From Achromobacter denitrificans NBRC 15125 (GTDB lineage: Bacteria; Pseudomonadota; Gammaproteobacteria; Burkholderiales; Burkholderiaceae_B): DNA of 64,000 nucleotides. Numbering within the stretch: the stretch's first letter is position 1; every line of letters begins with the position of its first letter. The stretch covers positions 1-64,000 of the forward strand of contig NZ_BCTQ01000012.1 of assembly GCF_001571365.1 (NCBI RefSeq). Reading direction: 5' to 3'. Made by a program: the position numbers and the translations under genes. Shown here in pieces: positions 6,727-29,897 of this stretch. Under the pieces are notes generated by a model that worked only from the letters and a program-made list of their open reading frames with translations, ran no database searches and was not told the DNA's origin.

Positions 6727-7131
6727 TCAGTAATCGGTGCTGTCGTAGGCGCTGTCGCTGACGATGGGCGCCGGCCGGGTCGATTCGGGCAGGAGCTTCA
6801 CGCGCACCGGCTTGCCGCCCCAGATTTCCTCCAGGTTGTAGTACTGGCGGATGGCGGGCTGCATGATGTGCACGACCACGTCGCCGAGGTCGACCACGAC
6901 CCATTCGCCGGTGTCCTCGCCTTCGATGGTGATGCCGGACAGATCGAGCGCGCGTCCGCGGTCGGCCACGCTGGAGGCCAGGGCGCGGGTCTGGCGGTTG
7001 GAGGTGGCGCTTGCAATCACGACGCGATCGAACAGGCTGGTCAGATGCGTGGTGTTGAAAACCTTGATGTCTTGCGCTTTGACGTCTTCGAGGGCGTCGA
7101 TGACGGCGCGTTGGAGTTTTTGTATATCCAT
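6727..7131 (-). CDS. rsfS: Ribosome silencing factor RsfS
   Basis: A 134-residue protein of the Iojap/RsfS family that binds L14 on the large subunit and blocks subunit joining in starvation. Core motifs are [49 protein letters not shown] and [10 protein letters not shown]. The frame remains open upstream to 7452, but family alignment and the ATG at 7131 (MDIQKLQ) fix the start. The C-terminal tail after the core, rich in Ser, Asp and Pro, is longer than in E. coli (105 residues) and may be disordered. Confidence 0.95.
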
Positions 7132-7205
7132 AGCTGTAAATATAACCCGCGCGCGGTCAGCGCAATGCTGGGTCCGTGGCGCATTCCGGCGCCCGGCGGG
7201 TGGGG

Positions 7206-7793
7206 TTATCGATAAAGATGGTGCGCCGCAATATATGCCGTGACGGCCGGATCGAGCAGGCCCTCGGTGGACTCGCCCTGCGCCAGGCGCTGGCGGATCT
7301 GGGAAGCCGAGACGGGCATGGGGGAAAAAGGCAGTTCCTGGAGGTCGCGACCCAGGCTCCGCAGGTGTTCGGCCAGCGCCGGCGGAGCGCTGAGCGCCGT
7401 GCCGGGGCGGGTGGCGACGGCCAGGTCGACTTGGCGTGCGATGTCCTGCCAATCGCGCCAGGTGCAGAAATTCGCCAGCTGGTCGGCGCCGAGCAGCCAG
7501 ACGTAGCGCGCGTCCTGGGGCAGCGCGCGCAGCGTGTCGATGGTGTAGGTAGCGCCGCCGCGATCGATTTCGATCGGGTTGACGGCCAGCCCCGGGTGGC
7601 CGTCGATCGCCAGTTCCAGCATGTCGCGCCGTTGTTGCGCGGTGGCATGCAGCGCGGCGCGCTGCCAGGGATTGGCCGCCGGGATGAGCTGCACTTCGGC
7701 CAGGCCCAGCGCCTGCAGCGCGCTGCGGGCAAGTGCGATGTGCGCGACGTGGACGGGGTCGAAACTGCCGCCCAGGAGCCCGATGCGTTTCAA
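7206..7793 (-). CDS. nadD: Nicotinate-nucleotide adenylyltransferase NadD
   Basis: A 195-residue enzyme that transfers AMP from ATP to nicotinate mononucleotide in NAD synthesis. The nucleotidyltransferase signature is [12 protein letters not shown] near the N-terminus, with [10 protein letters not shown] (the ISSTxIR motif) near the C-terminus and [17 protein letters not shown] in the middle. The likely start is a TTG at 7793 (KRIGLLGG follows), overlapping the hemF stop as TTGA. No ATG is available at the right place; an upstream ATG at 7871 would add 26 residues that do not resemble the family. Confidence 0.93.
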
Positions 7794-8701
7794 GCCCAGT
7801 CCCGCGGGGTCAGGTAGGCGGCCAGTTCCGCTTCGGGCGTGCCGGCTTGCGGCTGCCAGTCGTAGCGCCATTGCGCCAGCGGCGGCATGGATAGCAGGAT
7901 GGATTCGGTGCGCCCGCCGGATTGCAGGCCGAAGAGCGTGCCGCGGTCGAAGACCAGGTTGAACTCGACGTAGCGGCCGCGGCGGTAGGCCTGGAAATCG
8001 CGCTCGCGCTCGCCATAGGGCGTGCCGCGGCGGCGCTCCACGATGGGCAGGTAGCTGTCGAGGAAGGCGTCGCCGACCGAACGGGTCAGGGCGAACGAGG
8101 CGTCGAAGCCGGGGGCGTTCAGGTCGTCGAAGAAGATGCCGCCGATGCCGCGCGTTTCATTGCGGTGCTTCAGGAAGAAATAGTCGTCGCACCAGCGCTT
8201 GTAGCGCGGGTAGTAGTCGGCGCCGTGGCCGGCCAGCGCGTCGCGGCAGACGGTATGGAAATGGCGGGCGTCTTCCTCGAACGGATAGTAGGGGGTCAGG
8301 TCGATGCCGCCGCCGAACCAGAAAACGTCGGCTTCGTCGTGGCCGGGCCGGGCGGCCGCGAGGAACATGCGCACGTTCATGTGCGTGGTGGGCACATAGG
8401 GGTTGCGCGGATGCAGCACCATGGATACGCCCATGGCCTCCCACGAGCGGCCGGAAAGCTCGGGTCGGTGCGCGCTGGCCGACGGCGGCAGCCTGGTGCC
8501 CTGGACGTGGCTGAACAGCACGCCCGCCCGCTCGAACAGTTCGCCGCCTTCCAGCAGCCGCGACAGCCCGCCGCCGCCCTCGGGGCGCACCCATTCATCG
8601 GCGCGGAAGGCGGCGCCTTCCGCATCTTCCAGCGCGCCGACGATGCGGGCCTGCAAGCCGGTGAGGTAATCCCTGACTGCGGAGACGGGCAAGGCTTTCA
8701 T
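7790..8701 (-). CDS. hemF: Oxygen-dependent coproporphyrinogen III oxidase HemF
   Basis: A 303-residue enzyme (E. coli 299) that oxidatively decarboxylates coproporphyrinogen III to protoporphyrinogen IX in heme synthesis, using O2. Conserved blocks are [37 protein letters not shown] and the C-terminal [15 protein letters not shown] and [13 protein letters not shown]. It lies 12 bp after purD and overlaps nadD by four bases, so it is translationally coupled in the housekeeping operon. Its presence fits an aerobic lifestyle. Confidence 0.97.
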
Positions 8702-8713
8702 CGTCGGTTCCGG

Positions 8714-10021
8714 TTAGGCGTTGGACTTGGGCTTCTGCTGCGAGGGCTTGAGCGCGCGCCAGCCGATGTCGCTGCGGTACTGGCGGCCGTCGAAGTGGAT
8801 GCCGTCGATCGCTTCGTACACGCGGTCGCGGGCCATCTTGACCGAGTCGCCCAGCGCCGTGACGCACAGCACTCGGCCGCCGGTGGTCTTGGTTTCGTCG
8901 CCGTCGAGCCGGGTGGCGGCATGGAACACCATGCAGTCCTCGGCGTCGGCCGGCAGGCCGCGGATGACGTCGCCGGTGCGGGGCGTGTTCGGGTAGTTGT
9001 GCGCGGCCAGCACGGCGCCCAGCGCGGTGCGGCGGTCCCAGACGATGTCGGCTTGGTCCAGCGTGCCGTCGACGGCGTGTTCCAGGGCGTCCAGCAGGTC
9101 GCTCTTCACGCGCATCATGATGGGCTGCGTTTCCGGATCGCCCATGCGGCAGTTGAATTCCAGGGTCTTGATCTCGCGGTCGGGATCGTCGCCGGGGGCG
9201 ATCATCAGGCCGGCGTAGAGGAAGCCGGTGTAGGGAAGGCCGTCGCGCGCCATGCCCTGCACGGTCGGCAGGATGATTTCGCGCATGATGCGGTGGTGCA
9301 GTTCGGGGGTGACGATGGGCGCGGGGGAATAGGCGCCCATGCCGCCAGTGTTGGGGCCCTGGTCGCCGTCCTGCAGGCGCTTGTGGTCCTGGCTGGTGGC
9401 CAGCGCCAGCACGTTGCGGCCGTCGCACATGACGATGAAGCTGGCTTCTTCGCCCACCAGGCATTCCTCGATGACGACGCGAGCGCCGGCCTCGCCCATG
9501 GAGCCGTCGCCCAGCATGGCGTCGACGGCGGCGTGCGCCTCTTCCAGCGTGGCGGCGACCACGACGCCCTTGCCCGCGGCCAGGCCGTCGGCCTTGATCA
9601 CGATGGGAGCGCCTTCCTGGTCGATATAGGCATGCGCCTTGGCCGGGTCGGTAAAGGTTTCGTAGCGGGCGGTCGGGATGTTGTGCCGGACCATGAAGGC
9701 CTTGGCATAGTCCTTCGAGCTTTCCAGCTGCGCGGCGGCCTTGGTCGGGCCGAAGATCTTCAGGCCGCGGGCGCGGAACACGTCCACGACGCCGGCGGCC
9801 AGCGGCGCTTCGGGGCCGACGACGGTCAGGGCCACGCCTTCGCGCTGCACGAAATCGGCCAGTTCCTCGGCGTTGGTGAACGGAATGTTCTCCATCTGCT
9901 CGGCTCGTTGCGTGCCGCCATTGCCCGGGGCGACGTACACCTTATGCACGCGCGGGGAGCGGGCCAGCCGCCAGGCGAGGGCATGTTCGCGGCCGCCCGA
10001 GCCAATAACCAGGAGTTTCAT
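8714..10021 (-). CDS. purD: Phosphoribosylamine-glycine ligase PurD
   Basis: A 435-residue ATP-grasp enzyme catalysing the second step of purine synthesis, joining glycine to phosphoribosylamine. The N-terminus MKLLVIGSGGREHAL, then VVGPEAPLAAGVVD, the ATP-grasp loop IKADGLAAGKGVVVA, GPNTGGMGAYSPAP and EFNCRMGDPETQ are all family signatures. The frame extends upstream to 10369 but this ATG, with the sequence AGGAGGAT... located upstream at the yebC-purD junction, fits the family start. A short Lys/Gln-rich tail follows the core. Confidence 0.96.
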   Translation of the reverse strand: MKLLVIGSGGREHALAWRLARSPRVHKVYVAPGNGGTQRAEQMENIPFTNAEELADFVQREGVALTVVGPEAPLAAGVVDVFRARGLKIFGPTKAAAQLESSKDYAKAFMVRHNIPTARYETFTDPAKAHAYIDQEGAPIVIKADGLAAGKGVVVAATLEEAHAAVDAMLGDGSMGEAGARVVIEECLVGEEASFIVMCDGRNVLALATSQDHKRLQDGDQGPNTGGMGAYSPAPIVTPELHHRIMREIILPTVQGMARDGLPYTGFLYAGLMIAPGDDPDREIKTLEFNCRMGDPETQPIMMRVKSDLLDALEHAVDGTLDQADIVWDRRTALGAVLAAHNYPNTPRTGDVIRGLPADAEDCMVFHAATRLDGDETKTTGGRVLCVTALGDSVKMARDRVYEAIDGIHFDGRQYRSDIGWRALKPSQQKPKSNA

Positions 10022-10044
10022 GTTGGGTGATTCTGAAGGAGGAT

Positions 10045-10776
10045 TTACTGCGCTTCGTCGAAAACGACGGTCGTATAGACTTCCTGCACGTCGTCCAGGC
10101 CTTCCAGGGCGTCGAGCAGTTTTTGCATCTTGACGGCGTCTTCGCCGGCCAGTTCGGTTTCGTTCAAGGCTTTCATCACGATGCCGTCGACTTCGGCCTT
10201 CAGGCCGGCGGCGTCGAAGGCGCTGCGCACGGCGGCGTAGTCGGCCGGCGAGCAGACGACTTCGATCACGCCTTCCTCGTCGGTCGTGACGTCTTCGGCG
10301 CCGGCCTCCAGGGCGGCTTCCATGACCTGGTCTTCCGAAGTGCCGGGCGCGAACACGAATTGGCCGCAATGCTTGAACATGAAGGCCACCGAGCCTTCCT
10401 GGCCCAGGTTGCCGCCGTTCTTGGCGAAGGCGTGACGCACTTCGGCCACGGTGCGGGTGCGGTTGTCGGTCATGCAGTCGACGATCACGGCCGCGCCGCC
10501 GATGCCGTAGCCTTCGTAGCGGACTTCCTCGTAGGCGTCGCCGTCGGCGCCGCCCGCGCCACGCTGGATGGCGCGCTGGATGTTGTCCTTGGGCATGTTG
10601 GCGTCGGTGGCCTTGTCCCAGGCCATGCGCAGACGCGGATTGCTGTCGGGGTCGGGGCCGCCGGCGCGCGCCGCCACGGTGATTTCACGAATGATCTTGG
10701 TCCAGAGCTTTCCGCGCTTGGCGTCTTGGCGCCCTTTGCGGTGCTGAATATTGGCCCATTTGCTGTGTCCGGCCAT
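10045..10776 (-). CDS. yebC: YebC/TACO1-family protein
   Basis: A 243-residue member of the YebC/PmpR family, starting with the invariant [14 protein letters not shown]. The family has DNA-binding transcriptional regulators and, in recent work, translation factors that relieve ribosome stalling at proline tracts; which applies here cannot be read from sequence. The three-domain core is complete, with [24 protein letters not shown] and VAFMFKHCG. It is the first gene of the minus-strand operon, divergent from the ATPase gene; the shared 10777-10937 gap should hold promoters for both. Confidence 0.95.
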
Positions 10777-10937
10777 GGCTTCCCAGGATAAATTGTCTGC
10801 AAAAGAAGCATTTTACCGTGACGGCGGGCCGCGCGTCCGGGCAAGACCCGCTTGTGTCGATATTGCCACGCGCACAATCCGCGCGGCAGGCTCTACACTT
10901 GGGCATCCATCTGATTTCCCGGTTCGGAGAGTTGCAC

Positions 10938-12452
10938 ATGCCCACCCCTATCGTCATCGCCAAGAACGCCCGGACGGAGCTGGCGCTGCTGCCCGCGCTG
11001 GCCAACCGGCACGGGTGCATCACGGGGGCCACGGGCACGGGCAAGACCGTGACGCTGCAGGTCCTGGCCGAATCCTTTTCCCGCATCGGCACGCCGGTGT
11101 TCATGGCCGACGTCAAGGGCGACCTGACCGGCATTTCCCAGGCGGGAGCGGCCAGCCCGAAGCTGCTGGAGCGGCTGAAGACCCTGGGCCTGGACGCGCC
11201 GGCCTGGGCGGCCAGCCCCGTCACCCTCTGGGACGTCTTCGGCGAGCAGGGCCTGCCGGTGCGCGCCACCGTGTCCGATATGGGGCCCTTGCTGCTGTCG
11301 CGCATCCTCGAACTGAACGACACGCAGGAAGGGGTGCTGACCCTGGTGTTCAAGGTGGCCGACGACGAAGGCCAGCTGCTGCTGGACCTGAAGGATCTGC
11401 GCGCCATGCTGCAGAACGTCGCCGACCGGGCCGCGGAACTCAAGACCCGCTACGGCAACGTGTCCGCGGCCAGCATCGGCGCCATCCAGCGCGGCCTGCT
11501 GGCCCTGGAGTCCCAGGGCGCGGAGAAGTTCTTCGGCGAACCCATGCTGGACGTGGCCGACCTGATGCGCACGGATGCGCAGGGCCGCGGCATGGTCAAC
11601 GTCCTGGCGGCCGACAAACTCATGCAGGCGCCGCGCCTGTATGCCATTTTCCTGCTCTGGCTGCTGGCGGACCTTTACGAGAAACTGCCCGAGGTCGGCG
11701 ACATGGACCAGCCCAAGCTGGTGTTCTTCTTCGACGAAGCCCATCTGCTGTTCAACGACGCCCCGGCCGCGCTGCTCAACAAGATCGAGCAGGTGGTGCG
11801 GCTGGTTCGGTCCAAGGGGGTGGGCGTCTATTTCGTGACGCAGAATCCGCTGGACATCCCGGACACGGTGCTGGGGCAGCTCGGCAACCGGGTCCAGCAC
11901 GCGCTGCGTGCCTTCACGCCGCGCGACCAGAAGGCGGTCAAGACGGCCGCCCAGACCATGCGGCCCAACCCGGGGCTGGACATCGAGGCCGCCATTACCG
12001 AACTGGGCGTGGGCGAAGCGCTGGTGTCGCTGCTGGATCCCAAGGGCCGGCCCATGCCGACCGAGCGCGCCTTCATCGTGCCGCCGGCGAGCCGGATCGG
12101 CCCCGCCACGGACGCCGAGCGGCAGTCGCTGCGGCAGGGCAGCCCGCTGGCCTCCAAATACGAGACGGCCATCGACCGCGAGTCGGCCTATGAGGTGCTG
12201 GCCGGACGCGCGGCGAAGCCGGCGGCTCCCGCCGGAGCCGGACAGAACGAGTCGGGCCAGGCGCCGGCCGGCGACAGCGGCGGCGGGCTGATGGACAGCC
12301 TGAACGACGTGTTGTTCGGATCGACCGGGCCGCGCGGCGGCAAGCGCGACGGTATCGTCCAGACCATGGCCAAAAGCACCGTCCGATCGATCGCGCGCGA
12401 GCTGACTCGCGGCATATTGGGGTCTTTGCTGGGGTCCAAGGGCCGCCGTTGA
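10938..12452 (+). CDS. HerA/DUF853-family ATPase
   Basis: A 504-residue predicted NTPase of the DUF853 (helicase HerA-like, YjgR) family. Walker A is GATGTGKT at residues 30-37 and Walker B is [13 protein letters not shown]; an arginine-containing sensor region lies in [21 protein letters not shown] low-complexity Ala/Gly/Pro linker (about residues 410-440) separates the ATPase from a basic C-terminal tail ([19 protein letters not shown]). The family's cellular role is not established. The start at 10938 gives [10 protein letters not shown], matching the family; the frame is open further upstream without need. Confidence 0.9.
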
Positions 12453-22653: not shown

Positions 22654-22697
22654 GCCTGGCGCGGCCGTGAGGAGCCTTTTCGCCGCCGGCCTGCCTT

Positions 22698-22837
22698 GGG
22701 CCGCCCCAAGGCGGGCCAGCCCCGCGGGGGGCAGCAAGCATGCGCAGCGTGGGGGCCGGCCCGCCGCCGGGCCGCCCCAAGGCGGGCCAGCCCCCGCGGG
22801 GGGCAGCAAGCATGCGCAGCATGCGCAGCGTGGGGGC
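22698..22837. repeat. Pair of GC-rich intergenic repeats
   Basis: Copy 1 is 22698-22756 and copy 2 is 22769-22837. Both begin GGGCCGCCCCAAGGCGGGCC, contain a CCGCGGGGG palindrome and end with GCAGCAAGCATGCGCAGC then GTGGGGGC. Copy 2 has one extra C and an added ATGCGCAGC unit. The core GGCCGCCCCAAG recurs at 37345 and, reversed, at 33639. No transposase or target duplication is visible. The surrounding 370-bp gap between genes contains nothing else except the terminator and the promoter side of the aldehyde dehydrogenase. Confidence 0.85.
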
Positions 22838-22856
22838 TCACACCCATGCGCAGAAT

Positions 22857-22938: not shown

Positions 22939-24450
22939 ATGCCTGCTGCAAGCGCTTCCCCCGCCGGCCATGCCGGGGCCGACCGCCCGGAACTGGGCGC
23001 CATCCGCGAATCCATGCTCATCGACGGCAAGCCGGTGCGCGAGGGAGAGGGCGAGCCCATCGCCGTGCACGATCCCGCCACCGGCGAGATCATCGCGCAC
23101 CAGCCCGACGCGGGCCCCGCCCAGATCGACCTGGCCGTGCAGGCCGCCCGGCGGGCCTTCGATTCCGGCCCCTGGCGCGACATGCTGCCCGCCGGGCGTG
23201 AACGCCTCTTGTTGAAGCTGGCGGACCTGGTCGAGCAGCACGGCAATGAACTGGCCCGGCTGGAAACGCTGAACAACGGCAAGCTGCTGGGCGTGGCGCA
23301 GGGCCTGGAAGTGGGCTCCGGCGCGCAATGGCTGCGCTACATGGCGGGTTGGGCCACCAAGATCACCGGCGACACCTTGTCGCTGTCCATTCCGTTTCCG
23401 CCCGGCGTGCGCTACAGCGCCCAGACCCTGCCGCAGGCGGTGGGCGTGGTGGGGGCGATCATTCCCTGGAATTTCCCGCTGCTGATGGCGATCTGGAAGA
23501 TCGCGCCGGCCCTGGCGGCCGGCTGCACCGTGGTGCTCAAGCCTGCCGAGGAAACGCCGCTGACCGCGCTGCGCCTGGCCGAGCTGGTGCTGGAGGCGGG
23601 CTTTCCGCCCGGCGTGGTCAACGTCGTGACGGGCCGCGGCGAGACGGCGGGCGCGGCGCTGGTGGCGCATCCTGGCGTCGACAAGATCGCGTTCACCGGC
23701 TCGACCGAGGTGGGCAAGCTGATCGGCCGCGCGGCCATGGACGACATGAAGCGGGTGTCGCTGGAACTGGGCGGCAAGTCTCCCGTGATCATCCTGGACG
23801 ACTGCGACCTCGATCGCGCCGTGCAGGGGGCGGCGGCCGCGATCTTCTTCAACCAGGGGCAGGTGTGCACGGCGGGCTCGCGCCTGTACGTGCAGAAGAC
23901 GCTGTATCCCAAGGTCGTGCAGGGCCTGGCCGACCTGGCCGCCGGCATGAAGCTGGGCTCGGGCTTCGACCCGGCCACGCAGATCGGTCCGCTGGTCTCC
24001 GCCCGCCACCGGCAGCGCGTCATGGACTACATCGGCATCGGGCAGGCCGAGGGCGGGCGCGTCCTGGCCGGCGGCGGCGCGGGCGAGGGGCCGGGCTATT
24101 TCGTGCAGCCCACGGTATTCGCCGATCTGCGGCCGGACGCGCGGATCGCGCGCGAGGAAATCTTCGGGCCCGTCGTCGTGGCCCAGCCCTTCGACACCCT
24201 GGACGACGCCGTGCGGCTGGCCAACGACAGCGCCTTCGGCCTGGGAGCCAGCCTGTGGAGCAACGATCTGGCCCGGGTCCAGCGCCTGATCCCGCGCATC
24301 GATGCCGGAACGGTCTGGGTGAACACGCACAACATGCTCGATCCCAACATGCCTTTCGGCGGGTTCAAGCAATCCGGCATCGGCCGCGAGCACGGCCGCG
24401 CCGTCCTGGACCTGTATCTGGAGAAGAAGTCCGTTTGCATCGCGTACTAG
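22939..24450 (+). CDS. Phenylacetaldehyde-type aldehyde dehydrogenase
   Basis: A 503-residue NAD-dependent aldehyde dehydrogenase. Catalytic Cys310 sits in FFNQGQVCTAGSR and general-base Glu276 in LELGGKSP; PWNFPLLMAIWK and FTGSTEVGK bind cofactor. Length and the C-terminal DPNMPFGGFKQSGIGREHG resemble FeaB-type phenylacetaldehyde dehydrogenases. It lies directly upstream of an aromatic amine dehydrogenase operon, whose product from phenylethylamine or tyramine is an arylacetaldehyde, so it most likely makes phenylacetate or 4-hydroxyphenylacetate. GGAG before the ATG at 22939 sets the start. Substrate is inferred from context. Confidence 0.85.
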   Translation: MPAASASPAGHAGADRPELGAIRESMLIDGKPVREGEGEPIAVHDPATGEIIAHQPDAGPAQIDLAVQAARRAFDSGPWRDMLPAGRERLLLKLADLVEQHGNELARLETLNNGKLLGVAQGLEVGSGAQWLRYMAGWATKITGDTLSLSIPFPPGVRYSAQTLPQAVGVVGAIIPWNFPLLMAIWKIAPALAAGCTVVLKPAEETPLTALRLAELVLEAGFPPGVVNVVTGRGETAGAALVAHPGVDKIAFTGSTEVGKLIGRAAMDDMKRVSLELGGKSPVIILDDCDLDRAVQGAAAAIFFNQGQVCTAGSRLYVQKTLYPKVVQGLADLAAGMKLGSGFDPATQIGPLVSARHRQRVMDYIGIGQAEGGRVLAGGGAGEGPGYFVQPTVFADLRPDARIAREEIFGPVVVAQPFDTLDDAVRLANDSAFGLGASLWSNDLARVQRLIPRIDAGTVWVNTHNMLDPNMPFGGFKQSGIGREHGRAVLDLYLEKKSVCIAY

Positions 24451-24520
24451 AACCGCGGCGGCGCGGACCCAAGCCGGGAGATACCGGCGGCCGCGTCGTC
24501 CCGACACCAAGGGGAAGAGC

Positions 24521-25402
24521 ATGGCAGGGAAGACGGTTTGCCGGAACCGGAGACGCGCGGCGCTGCTGTTGGCATGCGCCGGCGCGACCCAGGCGGCATG
24601 GGCGGGAGACCCCAGCGCGCGCGACTGGATACCCGCGCCGGTCGGCACCAATCTGATCGCGGGGTATATGGCGGGGCTACGCTCGTCGGGGCTGTACTCC
24701 GAGGGCCGGCGGGTCGACGGCGCCTCGGTGGACGTGAACGCGCTGGTGTACCGCCAGATGCACTACCGCGATTTCTACGGCAAGACGGTGCAGCTCGAAT
24801 TCATCGTGCCGATGTACCGGACCTCGCTGGACCTGCCCGGCGCGCCGGGCGACCACCAGACGGGCATCGGCGACGTGACCCTGGGGTCGGCGATCTGGCT
24901 CTACAACAACGAGCAGACCAAGACCTGGTTCGCCTGGGAGCCGTTCATCGTGGCGCCCGTGGGGCGCTACGACGGGTCGCGTCCGGATGTGTCGCCCGGC
25001 AAGAACCGCTGGTCCACCATCCAGGACTTTTCCTTCGTGAAGGGGATAGGCGAATCCACCTACCTCGAAGCCATCGCCGAAGTGGAGATCTACGGCCGCA
25101 ATACCGATTGGTACGGGCAGACGCTGAAGAAGGATCCGTCGTTCCGCTTCTTCGCCCTGGCCTCGACCAACCTGACGCCCGACACCTACACGGGCGTGCG
25201 CTACCGCTACGAGACCGGCGGCCGGGAAACGTCCTCGGGCGAAACCGTGGCCACGAGCGCGCGCAACCACCAACTGGCGGTCGAACTCACGCACCAGATC
25301 AACGACGCCAACCAGATTCAGATGCAGTACATCCACGACCTGAAGGTCGAGAACGGGCCGCGCATGCGTGGCGTGCAGCTGCGCTACGTCTACGCGTTCT
25401 AG
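24521..25402 (+). CDS. Outer-membrane protein of the Phenol_MetA_deg type
   Basis: A 293-residue exported protein. A Sec signal (basic start, LLLACAGATQAAWA, cleavage near residue 28) is followed by alternating beta-strand segments with aromatic girdles and a C-terminal YVYAF, ending in Phe as outer-membrane barrels do. It resembles the 'MetA-pathway of phenol degradation' family, thought to pass or bind aromatic compounds. It lies 31 bp upstream of aauB and in the same direction, so it may admit aromatic amines to the periplasm. The AGGGGAAGAGC before the ATG is a fair ribosome-binding site. Role is inferred. Confidence 0.75.
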   Translation: MAGKTVCRNRRRAALLLACAGATQAAWAGDPSARDWIPAPVGTNLIAGYMAGLRSSGLYSEGRRVDGASVDVNALVYRQMHYRDFYGKTVQLEFIVPMYRTSLDLPGAPGDHQTGIGDVTLGSAIWLYNNEQTKTWFAWEPFIVAPVGRYDGSRPDVSPGKNRWSTIQDFSFVKGIGESTYLEAIAEVEIYGRNTDWYGQTLKKDPSFRFFALASTNLTPDTYTGVRYRYETGGRETSSGETVATSARNHQLAVELTHQINDANQIQMQYIHDLKVENGPRMRGVQLRYVYAF

Positions 25403-25433
25403 GAATTCGGATCATGAGACCAGGAGAATATCG

Positions 25434-26624
25434 ATGAGTGCGCTTCGTGCCAGATCATGCGCATCGCGGGCCGGGCAATGGGCGCTGTGCGCCGCCCTGG
25501 CGGCCACGGCCGGCCTCGCCCGGGCGGACCTGCCCGTGGAGGAGCTCAAGGGCGGCACCCGCCTGCCGCCGGCCACGCCCCACCGGCTGTACGTGATGGA
25601 CGCCGTCTTCAATCACCTGGTGGACAGCCGCGTCAACATCTACGACGGCGACACCATGAAGTTCCTGGGCCTCGTGCCCGCGTCGTTCAACGGCCACATG
25701 ACGGTATCGGCGGACGGCAAGGACATCTACGTGATGACGACCTACTACGAGCGGCTCAACCGCGGCAAGCGGACCGACCTGATCGAAGCCTGGGACGCCG
25801 AGACGCTGACGCCCAAGTACGAGGTGCCGATTCCAAAGAAGCGCGCGCAGGCGCTGAACTACCGCAACTACCTGCAGCAGAGCACCGACGGCGGCTTGTT
25901 GTTCGTGCAGAACGCGACGCCGGCGTCCTCGGTCACGGTGGTGGACCTGAAGGCGCGGCAGTTCACGGACGAAGTCACGGCCGCCGCGGGGTGCTGGAGC
26001 ATCATCGTCCTGCCTTCGCGTCCGCGCAGCTTCGCCAGCATCTGCGGCGACGGCGCGCTGCTGACGGTCGACCTGGACGCGGCCGGCAAGCCCTCGGGGC
26101 AGCAGCGCAGCCAGCCCATGTTCGATCCGGAAAAGGATCCGGTCTTCACCCATACCGAGAACCTCGGCAACACCTTCTATTTCGTTTCCTACAACGGCAA
26201 CGTGTACAGCGCGGACTTCAGCGGGCCGCAGGCCGCCTTTGGCCAGCGCTGGTCCCTGCTGGACGCTTCGGGCAAGGACCAGGGCTGGCGGCCCGGCGGC
26301 TACAACCTGCTGGCCGTGAACCAGGCGACGAAACGACTCTACGTCGGCATGCATCCGGACGGCGCCGAAGGCACGCACAAGACGCCCGCGGCCGAGATCT
26401 GGGTCTACGACCTGGCAACGCACAAGCGGGTGGCGCGCGTGCCGGGCAGGAACGCGCTGTCGATGTCGGTGTCGCAGGACGACCAGCCGCGCCTCTATAC
26501 CCTGGACGGCGGCAACGTGAACATCTACGACGCCGCGCCGGCCGCGCCCGTCCTCATGGGCACGATCGAGGGCGCGGGCGAGACCGCGCTGCAGGTCGAA
26601 CCGCAACCGCGAGGCGCGCGATGA
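25434..26624 (+). CDS. aauB: Aromatic amine dehydrogenase large subunit AauB
   Basis: A 396-residue periplasmic subunit, a seven-bladed beta-propeller of the amine dehydrogenase heavy-chain family. The Sec signal ends near ARA/DLP (about residue 31). Repeated blade motifs include RLYVMDAVFNHLVDSRVNIYDG, FNGHMTVSADGKDIYVMTTYYERLNRGKRTDLIEAWD and the C-terminal RLYVGMHPDGAEGTHKTPAAEIWVYD, the last being a strong family signature. It pairs with the TTQ-bearing small subunit AauA to oxidise aralkylamines to aldehydes and ammonia. CAGGAGAAT precedes the ATG; the stop overlaps aauE by four bases. Confidence 0.92.
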   Translation: MSALRARSCASRAGQWALCAALAATAGLARADLPVEELKGGTRLPPATPHRLYVMDAVFNHLVDSRVNIYDGDTMKFLGLVPASFNGHMTVSADGKDIYVMTTYYERLNRGKRTDLIEAWDAETLTPKYEVPIPKKRAQALNYRNYLQQSTDGGLLFVQNATPASSVTVVDLKARQFTDEVTAAAGCWSIIVLPSRPRSFASICGDGALLTVDLDAAGKPSGQQRSQPMFDPEKDPVFTHTENLGNTFYFVSYNGNVYSADFSGPQAAFGQRWSLLDASGKDQGWRPGGYNLLAVNQATKRLYVGMHPDGAEGTHKTPAAEIWVYDLATHKRVARVPGRNALSMSVSQDDQPRLYTLDGGNVNIYDAAPAAPVLMGTIEGAGETALQVEPQPRGAR

Positions 26625-27163
26625 ACGATCCCGTCCTGCTCTACGCCGCGAGCGCGGCGCTGGCCTGCGTGCTGCTCCTGGGCGCGCTGGAGAAGCTCAG
26701 GGACATGGCCGGGTTCGCCGCGGCCGTGTCGGCCTATCGGCTGCTGCCCGAGGGCTGGAGCCGCGCTTTCGCGTGGACCTACGCCCTGGCCGAAACGGCG
26801 GCCGGCGTCCTGCTGCTGGCGCCGTCGAGCCAGCCGGAGGGCGCGGCGCTGGCCCTGCTGCTGCTGGCGGCGGCCACGGCGGCGCTGGCCTTCAACCTGC
26901 TGCGCGGCCATCGCGACATCGATTGCGGCTGCGGCGGCGCCGGCCGCCGCGGGCAGGGCGCGGGGCTGTCGTGGTGGCTGGTGCTGCGCAATGCGGTCCT
27001 GGCGCTGTGGGCGGCGCCCGCGCTCCTGGCCGTCGCGGACGGCTCGCGCGGCCTGCAATGGGTGGACGCCGCCGCCGTCTTCGGCCTGGCGATGTCGGCC
27101 GTGGGCCTGTACTTCACCGCCAATCACCTCTTGGCCTCGCATCTCAAGCTGCGGAATCTTTGA
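26621..27163 (+). CDS. aauE: AauE/MauE-family membrane maturation protein
   Basis: A 180-residue inner-membrane protein with four or five predicted helices, matching the MauE/DoxX-like family. A conserved cysteine pair sits in DIDCGCGGAG (about residue 105), reminiscent of vitamin-K-epoxide-reductase-like or DsbB-like thiol chemistry. In methylamine and aromatic amine dehydrogenase systems the E protein is needed, together with the D protein, to form the many disulfides of the small subunit. It overlaps aauB by four bases and lies 11 bp before aauD, the usual B-E-D-A order. Confidence 0.88.
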   Translation: MNDPVLLYAASAALACVLLLGALEKLRDMAGFAAAVSAYRLLPEGWSRAFAWTYALAETAAGVLLLAPSSQPEGAALALLLLAAATAALAFNLLRGHRDIDCGCGGAGRRGQGAGLSWWLVLRNAVLALWAAPALLAVADGSRGLQWVDAAAVFGLAMSAVGLYFTANHLLASHLKLRNL

Positions 27164-27174
27164 AGGAGTTTCAC

Positions 27175-27813
27175 ATGGATGCCTTGATCATTTCCAACTT
27201 CCTGCTGTGGGGCGTGGTGCTCTGCCTGGTGCTGGTCATCCTGGCGCTGTCCCGGCAGATCGGCGTGCTGTATGAACGCGTGGCGCCGATGGGCGCGCTG
27301 ACGATGGACAAAGGCCCGGGCGTGGGCGAGCCCGCGCCGCGCTTCGAGCTCGCCGATCTGCTGGGCCGCCGCATCGCGGTGGGCGAACGCGGGCAACACA
27401 GCCAGCTGCTGTTCTTTCTTTCGCCGACCTGCCCGGTCTGCAAGAAGTTGCTGCCCATCCTGAAGTCGGTGGCCAGCACCGAGAGCGCCTGGCTGCGCAT
27501 CGTCCTGGCCAGCGACGGCGAAATGCCGGAGCACCTGGCGTTCTACAAGCAGGCCGGACTCGAACGCTTCCCCTACCTGCTGTCGGCCGAGCTGGGCATG
27601 AAGTTCCAGATCAGCAAGCTTCCCTACGCGGTGCTGATCGACGAAAACGGGACCTTGCGCGCGAAGGGCCTGATCAATTCCCGCGAACAGCTCGAAAGCC
27701 TGTTCACGGCCAAGGAACTGGGCGTGGCGTCGGTGCAGGAATTCCTGGCCGCCGGCACGCTGGAAGAAACCCGGATTTCCCGCAAGGAGAGCGGCAATGC
27801 ACTGGCTGGATAA
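27175..27813 (+). CDS. aauD: AauD/MauD-family periplasmic thiol-disulfide protein
   Basis: A 212-residue protein with one N-terminal membrane anchor (about residues 8-26) and a periplasmic thioredoxin-like domain. The active-site pair is Cys86-Pro-Val-Cys89 in FLSPTCPVCKKLL; the cis-Pro region is KLPYAVLIDENG. MauD homologues are required to form disulfides in the cysteine-rich small subunit of TTQ enzymes; without them the subunit is degraded. A good ribosome-binding site (GAAGGAG) precedes the ATG and the gene overlaps aauA by 17 bases. Confidence 0.93.
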   Translation: MDALIISNFLLWGVVLCLVLVILALSRQIGVLYERVAPMGALTMDKGPGVGEPAPRFELADLLGRRIAVGERGQHSQLLFFLSPTCPVCKKLLPILKSVASTESAWLRIVLASDGEMPEHLAFYKQAGLERFPYLLSAELGMKFQISKLPYAVLIDENGTLRAKGLINSREQLESLFTAKELGVASVQEFLAAGTLEETRISRKESGNALAG

Positions 27814-28312
27814 ACTTGGAGAGCGCGCCACGCGCTCCGTCGCGCACGCCACTTCCCGGCGCAGCGTGCTCAACCGCATCGGCAAGGCGCTGGTCGGAAC
27901 CGCTTTCCTGATGCCGGTGCTGCCCGTGGCCCGCTCGGCGCCGGCCGACGCCAAGAAGCCGCAGATGGACGATACCGCCTGCGACTACTGGCGCTATTGC
28001 GCGGTGGACGGCTTCCTGTGTTCCTGCTGCGGAGGCAGTATGACGTCCTGCCCCCCGGGCACCTCGCCGTCGGCGGTGTCGTGGGTGGGGACCTGCCACA
28101 ATCCGCTGGACGGCAAGGACTACCTCATCAGCTACAACGATTGTTGCGGCAAGGCGGCCTGCGGCAAGTGCATGTGCGCGGCCGCCGAGCGCGAGCGCCC
28201 GGGCTACCAGATGTTCCTGCACAACGACGTGAACTGGTGCATGTCCAACGAATCCTCCATCTTCCATTGCACGACCTCGGTGATCGTGGGCCTGGCCAAG
28301 CCGAAGCCATGA
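27797..28312 (+). CDS. aauA: Aromatic amine dehydrogenase small subunit AauA (TTQ)
   Basis: A 171-residue precursor. The N-terminus has a twin-arginine motif (SRRSVLNRIGKAL, residues 20-32) and a hydrophobic stretch, so the subunit is exported folded. The mature part is packed with cysteines (14 from residue 62 on), for six disulfides as in methylamine dehydrogenase. Trp96 (SAVSWVGTC) and Trp147 (NDVNWCMS) are 51 residues apart, as are the two Trp that crosslink to tryptophan tryptophylquinone in the known enzymes, and Asp115 (YNDCCG), 19 after the first Trp, matches the catalytic base. All chemistry residues are present, so the enzyme should be active. Confidence 0.95.
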   Translation: MHWLDKLGERATRSVAHATSRRSVLNRIGKALVGTAFLMPVLPVARSAPADAKKPQMDDTACDYWRYCAVDGFLCSCCGGSMTSCPPGTSPSAVSWVGTCHNPLDGKDYLISYNDCCGKAACGKCMCAAAERERPGYQMFLHNDVNWCMSNESSIFHCTTSVIVGLAKPKP

Positions 28313-28863
28313 AGCCGGGCATGGGGCGGCCGGGGCGGGGATGGGGGCGGCATTGCGTCGCCGCCATCCTGCTCTGCGCGGCGCGCGCCGCCGCGGGCGA
28401 AGGCGGGGCGGTCCAAACCGCCGCGGCCCAGGCCGGGGCGGACCCGGCGGAGGCGCAGCGATTGCGGCAGGGCGTGCGCGCCGACTACGTCCTGCAGTGC
28501 GCGGGCTGCCATCGCGTGGACGGACGCGGCAGCAGCCGCCACGGCATCCCGGATTTCCGCGACTCGGTCGGCGCGTTCGTGCACATGCCGGCGGGCCGCG
28601 AATACCTGATCCGCGTGCCCGGCGCGGCGCAGTCCCAGCTGAACGACGCGGAGCTCGCAGCCGTGCTGAACTGGGTGCTGGAGGAATTCAGCCCCGCGCA
28701 ACTGCCCGCGGATTTCCGCCCCTACGGCGAGGAAGAGGTCGCCGAGGCGAGGCGGCGCCGCTACGAGGATGTCGTGCCGGTGCGCCACGCGTTGGCGAAG
28801 GCCCTGGCGCAGCGGGGCTTCCCCCTGGCCGAATATTCCTACGGCAGCGACCGAAAACCCTAG
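28309..28863 (+). CDS. Monoheme c-type cytochrome of the aau cluster
   Basis: A 184-residue exported protein with a signal peptide (about residues 1-29) and a single heme motif CAGCH at 64-68. A plausible axial Met lies in VHMPAGREY and the C-terminal helix LNDAELAAVLNWVLEEF matches class I cytochromes c. A charged extension of about 50 residues follows the heme domain. It overlaps aauA by four bases, so it is probably an electron acceptor for the TTQ enzyme, in place of or in addition to azurin. No blue-copper gene is seen nearby. Partner role is inferred. Confidence 0.88.
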   Translation: MKPGMGRPGRGWGRHCVAAILLCAARAAAGEGGAVQTAAAQAGADPAEAQRLRQGVRADYVLQCAGCHRVDGRGSSRHGIPDFRDSVGAFVHMPAGREYLIRVPGAAQSQLNDAELAAVLNWVLEEFSPAQLPADFRPYGEEEVAEARRRRYEDVVPVRHALAKALAQRGFPLAEYSYGSDRKP

Positions 28864-28943
28864 CGGGCCGGCAACTTAGGGGTTGTTACCGATACTCCCT
28901 CCCGTCGGCCGATGCTAGAAAGAGGCAGCATTCCGGAGTCGTC

Positions 28944-29897
28944 ATGTCCCAAACCCTTTTGCGCAGCGCGCCCAGGCATTTCCTGGATTGCGCCAGCTGG
29001 CAGGAAAGTGTCAGCGATACCTTCGTCCCCCTGGAAGTGTCCGCCGTGTTTCCCGCGCGTTTCCGCAATAGCGTGGCGGTGGACTCCCTGGGCTGGATGC
29101 AGGTCAGCGAGCTGCGCAGCAGCGCGCAACGCGTGCGCCGCAGCAAGCTGCAGGCCGACCAGTCCGTGGCGGCGGGCTACAAGGTGACGCTGCAGTTGTC
29201 GGGCCGCAGCGAAATCCGCCAGGCCAGGCGCGGCGCGCTGCTGATGCCCGGCGAATGGGGCATCTACGACACGACCCGTCCGTACGAGGTCGATGTGGAC
29301 GAGGGCGCGCATTTCCTGGTGATGCAAGTGCCGGGCAAGCACGTCGACGCCTGGCAACCGTTCATGCAGAACGCCGTGGCGCGCCGCTTCAGCGCCCGTC
29401 AGGGCTGCGGCCGCATGGCCATGGACTTGCTGCGGGTGGCGCTGAACGAACATGCGCACTTATCGGAGAGCGCGTCGCGCGATGCCGCCAACGCGGTATT
29501 GCAGATGATGGGGCTGGACATCAGCGAACAGGCCGGCGCGCTGGCCGAGCAGGACCAGGCCGAACTGCGGCTGGCGCAATTGCGCCGGGTGCAGCAGCAC
29601 CTCCTCGAAAACCTGCATGACCCGGCCTTGTCGCCCGCCAGCGCGGCCGCGGCCTTCCGGGTGTCGCGGCGCTACCTGTACAACCTCTTCGCGCTGGCCT
29701 CCACCACGCCCGCCGATTTCATCCTCAGCGCGCGGCTGGAACGTTGCCGGGACACGCTGTGCGATGCGGCCCAGGCGGCCCGGCCGATCGGCGACATCGC
29801 CTACCGCTTCGGCTTTTCGGACGCGGCGCGCTTCAGCCACGCGTTCCGCAAGCGCTTCGGCGTGTCGCCCTCCGAATACCGGCGCCAGGAACGCTAG
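28944..29897 (+). CDS. AraC-family regulator, FeaR-like
   Basis: A 317-residue activator. The N-terminal half (to about 190) is the AraC-binding-like/cupin domain of the FeaR group (HFLVMQVPGKHV, GYKVTLQLSGRSEI); the C-terminal 100 residues hold two helix-turn-helix motifs (AAAAFRVSRRYLYNLFA and IGDIAYRFGFSDAARFSHAFRKRFGVSPSEYR). FeaR in E. coli turns on phenylethylamine and tyramine oxidation genes. Placement 80 bp after the aau operon makes control of this cluster likely. CCGGAG precedes the ATG at 28944. The first helix-turn-helix is Ala-rich but intact. Confidence 0.85.
   Translation: MSQTLLRSAPRHFLDCASWQESVSDTFVPLEVSAVFPARFRNSVAVDSLGWMQVSELRSSAQRVRRSKLQADQSVAAGYKVTLQLSGRSEIRQARRGALLMPGEWGIYDTTRPYEVDVDEGAHFLVMQVPGKHVDAWQPFMQNAVARRFSARQGCGRMAMDLLRVALNEHAHLSESASRDAANAVLQMMGLDISEQAGALAEQDQAELRLAQLRRVQQHLLENLHDPALSPASAAAAFRVSRRYLYNLFALASTTPADFILSARLERCRDTLCDAAQAARPIGDIAYRFGFSDAARFSHAFRKRFGVSPSEYRRQER

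Follow-up and report, generated by a model that had tools for sequence, protein, structure and literature searches.

A mono-haem cytochrome c without axial methionine proposed in the place of MauG in the aau operon of Achromobacter denitrificans

Eight genes on the plus strand, at 22939-29897 of a 64,000-nucleotide stretch of Achromobacter denitrificans NBRC 15125 (contig NZ_BCTQ01000012.1, positions 1 to 64,000; here called the window), form an aau operon whose aauBEDA genes are predicted to encode an aromatic amine dehydrogenase (AADH) with the cofactor tryptophan tryptophylquinone (TTQ). We propose, at a probability of roughly 0.4, that TTQ in this operon is made independently of MauG and that the small cytochrome c encoded directly after aauA takes MauG's place. 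A stronger form of this proposal, possible though on balance doubtful, is that a mono-haem cytochrome c without axial methionine became the TTQ-making enzyme of the AADH branch as an unrelated replacement of the dihaem protein MauG; two branches of TTQ dehydrogenases would thus rely on two non-homologous haem proteins to mature the same cofactor. In methylamine dehydrogenase (MADH), TTQ is completed by MauG (passages of PMC7876137 and PMC6405878).

Two kinds of small cytochrome c were found after aauA in the loci of relatives (the best 80 of 430 confirmed in named genomes, with flanks of up to 9 kb). In type I the Met loop is intact; type II is the kind present in the window. Where the sequence extends more than 600 bases 3' of aauA (73 loci), type II was found in 71. 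Type I was present in only 33 of the 80 loci (one partial) and was for this reason rejected as a constant partner of AADH. The partial gene of L145 is left out of the type I/II count. In a sample of 268 genomes of the host family, PF02975, the family matched by aauA, occurred in 59; three of these (G045, G046 and G049) hold MADH clusters with MauG close to mauA, and the other 56 were counted as AADH genomes. A type II profile (E 1e-8) matched 55 of these 56 and none of the 212 other genomes, MADH genomes included. The single AADH genome without a match (G033) is a metagenome-assembled genome (MAG), 57% complete, in which the contig ends soon after aauA, while in G010 and G018 type II lies on a different contig from aauA and the aauA contig ends there.

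The same distribution was seen on plasmids. Among 72,556 plasmid records, a TTQ light chain was present in 30, of which 15 are annotated as mauA and 15 others were termed AADH-type. Type II (E 1e-5) was found in 15 records, exactly the AADH-type ones; all 15 AADH-type loci have it and none has MauG within 8 kb (blastp 1e-15). Conversely, MauG lies within about 3 kb in all nine MADH loci that were read (6 of the 15 plasmids and three genomic loci), none of which has type II. In a light-chain tree of 106 rows thinned to 62, the rows with MauG make up one side of a branch (100/99), which corresponds to a single change of state. MauG and the type II cytochrome thus mark two branches of TTQ dehydrogenases in the loci read, and type II tracks AADH-type rather than MADH-type loci in nearly all cases examined.

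No MauG or cytochrome c peroxidase (CCP) homologue was found in the flanks of the 80 relative loci (blastp 1e-5). Whole genomes were searched for dihaem proteins of the PF03150 family only, and G033 stood outside this search. PF03150 was present in 47 of 57 TTQ-positive genomes, including the three with MADH; with G000 (one match) added, 45 of 55 AADH genomes have a match and ten have none. The sole match in the window's genome lies on another contig and has Met at the site of the MauG tyrosine. Likewise, the top-scoring CCP has Met, not MauG's Tyr, at the sixth-ligand site in all 31 genomes examined out of the 45 with a match. The ten negative genomes carry five genus codes, are 95-100% complete and include four single-contig assemblies (G035, G036, G038 and G211). 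A MauG query gave no match at E 0.01 in seven of them and matches of about 100 residues (E 0.005-0.008) in the other three, whereas the two MADH controls scored E below 1e-220. The eight genes, both tryptophans and Asp115 are retained in every one of the ten. Since these genomes combine an intact operon with the lack of any MauG/CCP match, we infer that the TTQ of AADH is probably completed without MauG.

The same ten genomes would also be expected if AADH formed its TTQ by itself or with a general periplasmic oxidant, needing neither MauG nor the cytochrome. A passage of PMC7876137 supports part of this idea, in that the first tryptophan hydroxylation is thought to be autocatalytic in MADH and in LodA/GoxA. 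The TTQ and cysteine tryptophylquinone (CTQ) systems compared in that passage nevertheless each have a dedicated enzyme, namely MauG, LodB, GoxB or QhpG (PMC7876137). Furthermore, nearly all of the AADH loci examined retain the cytochrome, unlike what would be expected of an idle bystander, and we consider unaided formation of TTQ improbable.

The window cytochrome (28309..28863, plus strand) has one CXXCH motif (CAGCH) and matches Cytochrom_C, not PF03150; it is not a member of the MauG family, though it could work like MauG. A signal peptide was recognized by eye, and the protein looks exported. Its closest solved relative by sequence is Thermus thermophilus c552 (1c52, E 2.8e-19). A confident AlphaFold2 model with a predicted local distance difference test score (pLDDT) of 91.8 gave as closest folds 1c52 (Z 11.1, root-mean-square deviation 2.6, 111 aligned, 34% identity) and 1dt1 (Z 11.2), with all others at Z <=8.3. 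Since a Z of about 11 is only moderate for a small helical protein, the c552 assignment is carried by the sequence match. This profile match skips residues 50-72 of the 1c52 chain, the loop that holds its axial Met (Met69). A profile comparison of type II with type I (probability 99.6) places its gap over the type I Met loop; all 45 type I sequences have this Met, and there is no conserved Met column in 88 type II sequences, where the sole Met-rich column (position 83) has Met in 33 of 88 and Phe in the window. The spacing from the haem His to a conserved Asn is 50-52 residues in type II versus 67-71 in type I. As aligned, type II is a Thermus c552-type cytochrome minus about 17 residues, the axial methionine among them.

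The residues best conserved in type II, apart from the haem motif, are also common among the 45 type I sequences (Pro81 in 45, Arg97 in 33, Asn121 in 22, Arg148 in 39 and Arg159 in 44), so that no new side-chain ligand stands out. Two candidate residues were dropped. A tyrosine that seemed to replace Met invariantly in 17 rows belongs to a column of 27 Y, 20 F and 3 L in 50 rows, and a Trp after the conserved Asn, considered as a hole-hopping residue, is present in 78 of 88 sequences and so is not invariant. Loss of the axial-Met loop suggests that the haem iron is open or weakly ligated and hence probably accessible. The type II cytochrome would then use O2 or H2O2 at the open haem, pulling electrons from the tryptophans of pre-TTQ.

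Another possibility is that type II serves AADH as its dedicated electron acceptor, a counterpart of amicyanin, with some other factor making TTQ. An acceptor is required by every TTQ dehydrogenase, the cytochrome gene follows directly after the enzyme genes, its product looks exported, and the c552 fold is used for electron transfer. On the other hand, the lost Met ligand would be odd for a fast carrier. The Met-loop cytochrome found after aauA in part of the loci looks like the better carrier, yet it is inconstant while type II stays, and azurin is a known partner of AADH in Alcaligenes faecalis. With a frequent second, ordinary cytochrome and azurin at hand, an acceptor role for type II is less needed; we regard such a role as quite possible, if somewhat doubtful.

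Several observations weigh against a maturation role for the cytochrome. We know of no mono-haem maturase of such a kind, and any subunit or electron acceptor would be expected to share an operon with its enzyme. Assessment of the haem pocket relied on alignment, and a missing Met may be compatible with an iron that is not open. AADH genomes of other families contain PF03150 proteins in 19 of 20 cases, so that MauG independence by absence is demonstrated for the Alcaligenaceae sample only; 30 such frames from these families have 14 Met, 13 Tyr, 2 Phe and 1 Glu at the MauG site. Two MAG loci that group together (L156 and L170; 96/80) have only type I after aauA. Each of their contigs carries, 9-12 kb downstream of aauA, a short and divergent type II relative (24-30 bits) directly before two MauG/CCP-family dihaem genes; these stretches are L232 4211-6914 (minus strand) and L233 10602-13449 (plus strand). 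This arrangement suggests that MauG-like enzymes might serve some AADHs, and would be consistent with reversion to a MauG-like route.

The aau genes were reportedly found without mauG in 2001, and how the TTQ of AADH is made is said to have been an open question since. Recombinant AADH has reportedly been produced in Paracoccus denitrificans. The mau plasmid of this species carries MauG, so help from the expression host could not be excluded. This ambiguity is removed by genomes in which an intact AADH operon occurs without a MauG/CCP match, and the near-constant cytochrome without a Met loop provides a single candidate gene for TTQ maturation. If it is the maturase, a protein-derived quinone would be built by a one-haem protein. 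We found no paper on the role of the aau cytochrome in the literature searched, which omits most subscription journals.

The identity of the dehydrogenase itself is supported by both chains. The light chain encoded by aauA (27797..28312, plus strand; PF02975, 180.6 bits) aligns with the solved AADH light chain of A. faecalis (2agl_D, E 1.5e-62), and the heavy chain encoded by aauB (25434..26624, plus strand; PF06433, 150 bits) with the solved heavy chain (2h3x_A, E 3.7e-129). Scores to AADH versus MADH were 214 versus <=148.5 bits for the light chain and 434 versus <=130 bits for the heavy chain. The NCBIfam matches of both chains are MADH equivalogs, with scores under their cut-offs. Trp96, Trp147 and Asp115 are matched by Trp, Trp and Asp in 2agl_D and are invariant across 13 alignment rows; we take them to correspond, with an offset of +13, to beta-Trp109, beta-Trp160 and beta-Asp128 of the published enzyme. 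By these comparisons the aauBEDA product is assigned as a TTQ aromatic amine dehydrogenase and not MADH, and the statement of the first-pass annotation that the TTQ tryptophans and the catalytic Asp115 are intact is borne out. Public annotation gives AADH-type light chains the name 'methylamine dehydrogenase light chain' (L240, L242, L244, L246 and L252).

The remaining genes of the block, all on the plus strand, were assigned from Pfam and NCBIfam profile matches. The block opens with a gene for a phenylacetaldehyde dehydrogenase of the StyD/FeaB type (22939..24450; PF00171, 583 bits), followed by a gene for an outer-membrane protein of the Phenol_MetA_deg family that may serve substrate entry (24521..25402; PF13557, 91.4 bits). 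Between aauB and aauA lie aauE, encoding a MauE-like membrane protein (26621..27163; PF07291, 93.8 bits), and aauD, encoding a MauD thioredoxin-like disulphide protein (27175..27813; TIGR02661, 208.9 bits versus a cut-off of 188.6). An AraC-family regulator gene (28944..29897; PF14525, 77.2 bits, and PF12833, 70.3 bits) stands last, and a convergent QueH gene adjoins the block at its 3' end. ATGA overlaps join aauB to aauE and aauA to the cytochrome gene, and the start of aauA falls within aauD. The genome (6.7 Mb, 97 contigs) carries the window on contig C12. Gene positions, profile families and chain alignments together confirm the eight-gene TTQ dehydrogenase operon at the position where it had been annotated; it is an aau operon of the Alcaligenaceae, a known kind of aromatic-amine operon. 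Neither tandem repeats nor sigma-70 promoters were found near the operon, and nothing is concluded from this. GC-rich near-repeats were noticed by eye at 22697-22855, 5' of the aldehyde dehydrogenase gene, where Tandem Repeats Finder gives none.

Family knowledge suggests a simple catabolic route. AauAB would deaminate phenylethylamine- or tyramine-type amines to aldehydes in the periplasm, with electrons leaving via azurin or a cytochrome, and AauE and AauD would assist light-chain folding and disulphide formation as MauE and MauD do. The StyD/FeaB-type dehydrogenase would oxidize the aldehyde to an arylacetate, which could enter a paa pathway elsewhere in the genome. The aldehyde dehydrogenase scores 868.4 bits on the StyD model NF045735, above its cut-off of 850, and is 48.9% identical to E. 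coli FeaB over 481 amino acids, in agreement with the phenylacetaldehyde-type enzyme named in the first-pass annotation. No copper amine oxidase match was found in the window's genome, which is consistent with the further claim that the TTQ enzyme stands in place of such an oxidase. A paaA homologue elsewhere in the genome (548 bits, cut-off 280) is in keeping with subsequent degradation of phenylacetate.

The probable regulator of the operon is the AraC protein. It had been described as apparently the same type of regulator as FeaR, with a phylogeny suggested as a check, and this description held in part. FeaR (NF007243) is its best NCBIfam match, at 162.9 bits, below the cut-off of 199 and little above a further AraC protein encoded in this genome (150.7 bits), and it is 25.9% identical to E. 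coli FeaR across 266 residues. In a tree of 37 rows, 14 aau regulators form one clade (100/100) that holds aau regulators only, and the FeaRs of E. coli, Klebsiella and a tynA-linked Pseudomonas form a separate one (100/100), which two FeaR-annotated plasmid proteins join (99/87). L157 and L160, with AraC matches of only 35 residues each, stood outside the tree. Few FeaR sequences were sampled, as 229 genomes of the class searched at E 1e-50 gave one match, just under the cut-off, and FeaR relatives were then taken from plasmids. An exclusive clade of aau regulators with the three firm FeaRs costs 23.8 log units and is weakly rejected (approximately unbiased test, p-AU 0.033), whereas a forced clade with all five FeaR-like proteins is not (p-AU 0.218). 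Given the score below the cut-off, the separate clades and these two tests, the regulator appears to be a FeaR-like relative, its identity as FeaR being only partly supported, and aau regulators may share an origin with the wider FeaR-like group.

The operon might also represent a FeaR/FeaB circuit of the E. coli type, with the TTQ enzyme substituted for TynA, a suggestion that concerns regulation only and is compatible with the other explanations. The top NCBIfam match, the unrejected clade with the wider FeaR-like group, the similarity of the aldehyde dehydrogenase to FeaB (49%) and the lack of a copper amine oxidase match all agree with it. The low FeaR score, the separate clades, rejection of the exclusive one and a gene order unlike feaR-feaB-tynA make such a circuit unlikely.

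The aau operon is ordinary for Achromobacter and other Alcaligenaceae, and the nearest named relatives at the locus are Achromobacter. Of twenty places chosen from 60 with PF02975, 14 show the complete eight-gene order, two are cut by contig ends, one is a divergent second locus without aldehyde dehydrogenase, outer-membrane and AraC genes, and three are MADH clusters. Conservation of order in 14 of 20 places argues that the layout is not due to chance. Among the 80 relative loci, aauD and aauA are present in all and aauB and aauE in 78 each. The outer-membrane gene is found in 34 and the AraC gene (above 150 bits) in 33, with five mismatches that are contig-end cuts, which indicates that the eight-gene form belongs to Alcaligenaceae-type loci; elsewhere aauBEDA has other neighbours.

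A few loci are unusual. L058 (G021:C1:3746000-3765000; 6905-11841, minus strand) is a second, divergent TTQ locus with a light chain 50% identical to aauA, a type II cytochrome (115 bits) and, by eye, an adjacent multicopper-oxidase-like frame. A Chimaeribacter arupi plasmid locus (L246) resembles it, with two cytochromes and an annotated multicopper oxidase. On a plasmid of Paracoccus sp. SMMA_5_TC, a tyrosinase-family gene (L240, 11375-12904, minus strand) neighbours an AADH-type locus; several cytochromes and an SCO-family gene are found there as well. The contig that carries the aau locus L151 is filed under a Klebsiella pneumoniae MAG; it may be mis-binned, since the L151 light chain groups with that of a gammaproteobacterial MAG (L146).

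Four known systems can be compared with the operon in the window. The aau cluster of A. faecalis is said to have been described by Chistoserdov in 2001 as orf-1, aauBEDA, orf-2, orf-3, orf-4 and hemE; orf-2, after aauBEDA, reportedly encodes a mono-haem cytochrome, and the absence of mauFGLMN, and thus of mau maturation genes, had reportedly been noted already. The locus of A. faecalis AU14 (L120) has all eight genes in the same order as the window, with 65% identity in aauA and 43% in the cytochrome; the window's block is followed by QueH, whereas hemE is reported for A. faecalis. The mau cluster of P. denitrificans (L243) shares homologous heavy and light chains and MauE/MauD, but has MauF, amicyanin, MauJ and MauG and no type II cytochrome. 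The E. coli feaR-feaB-tynA locus (L171) likewise serves aromatic-amine catabolism with an AraC-family regulator and a phenylacetaldehyde dehydrogenase, but uses a copper amine oxidase, has another gene order and a regulator of another clade. Finally, Thermus c552 (1c52) is closest to the window cytochrome by both sequence and fold, and differs in possessing the axial-Met loop that the type II cytochrome is missing.

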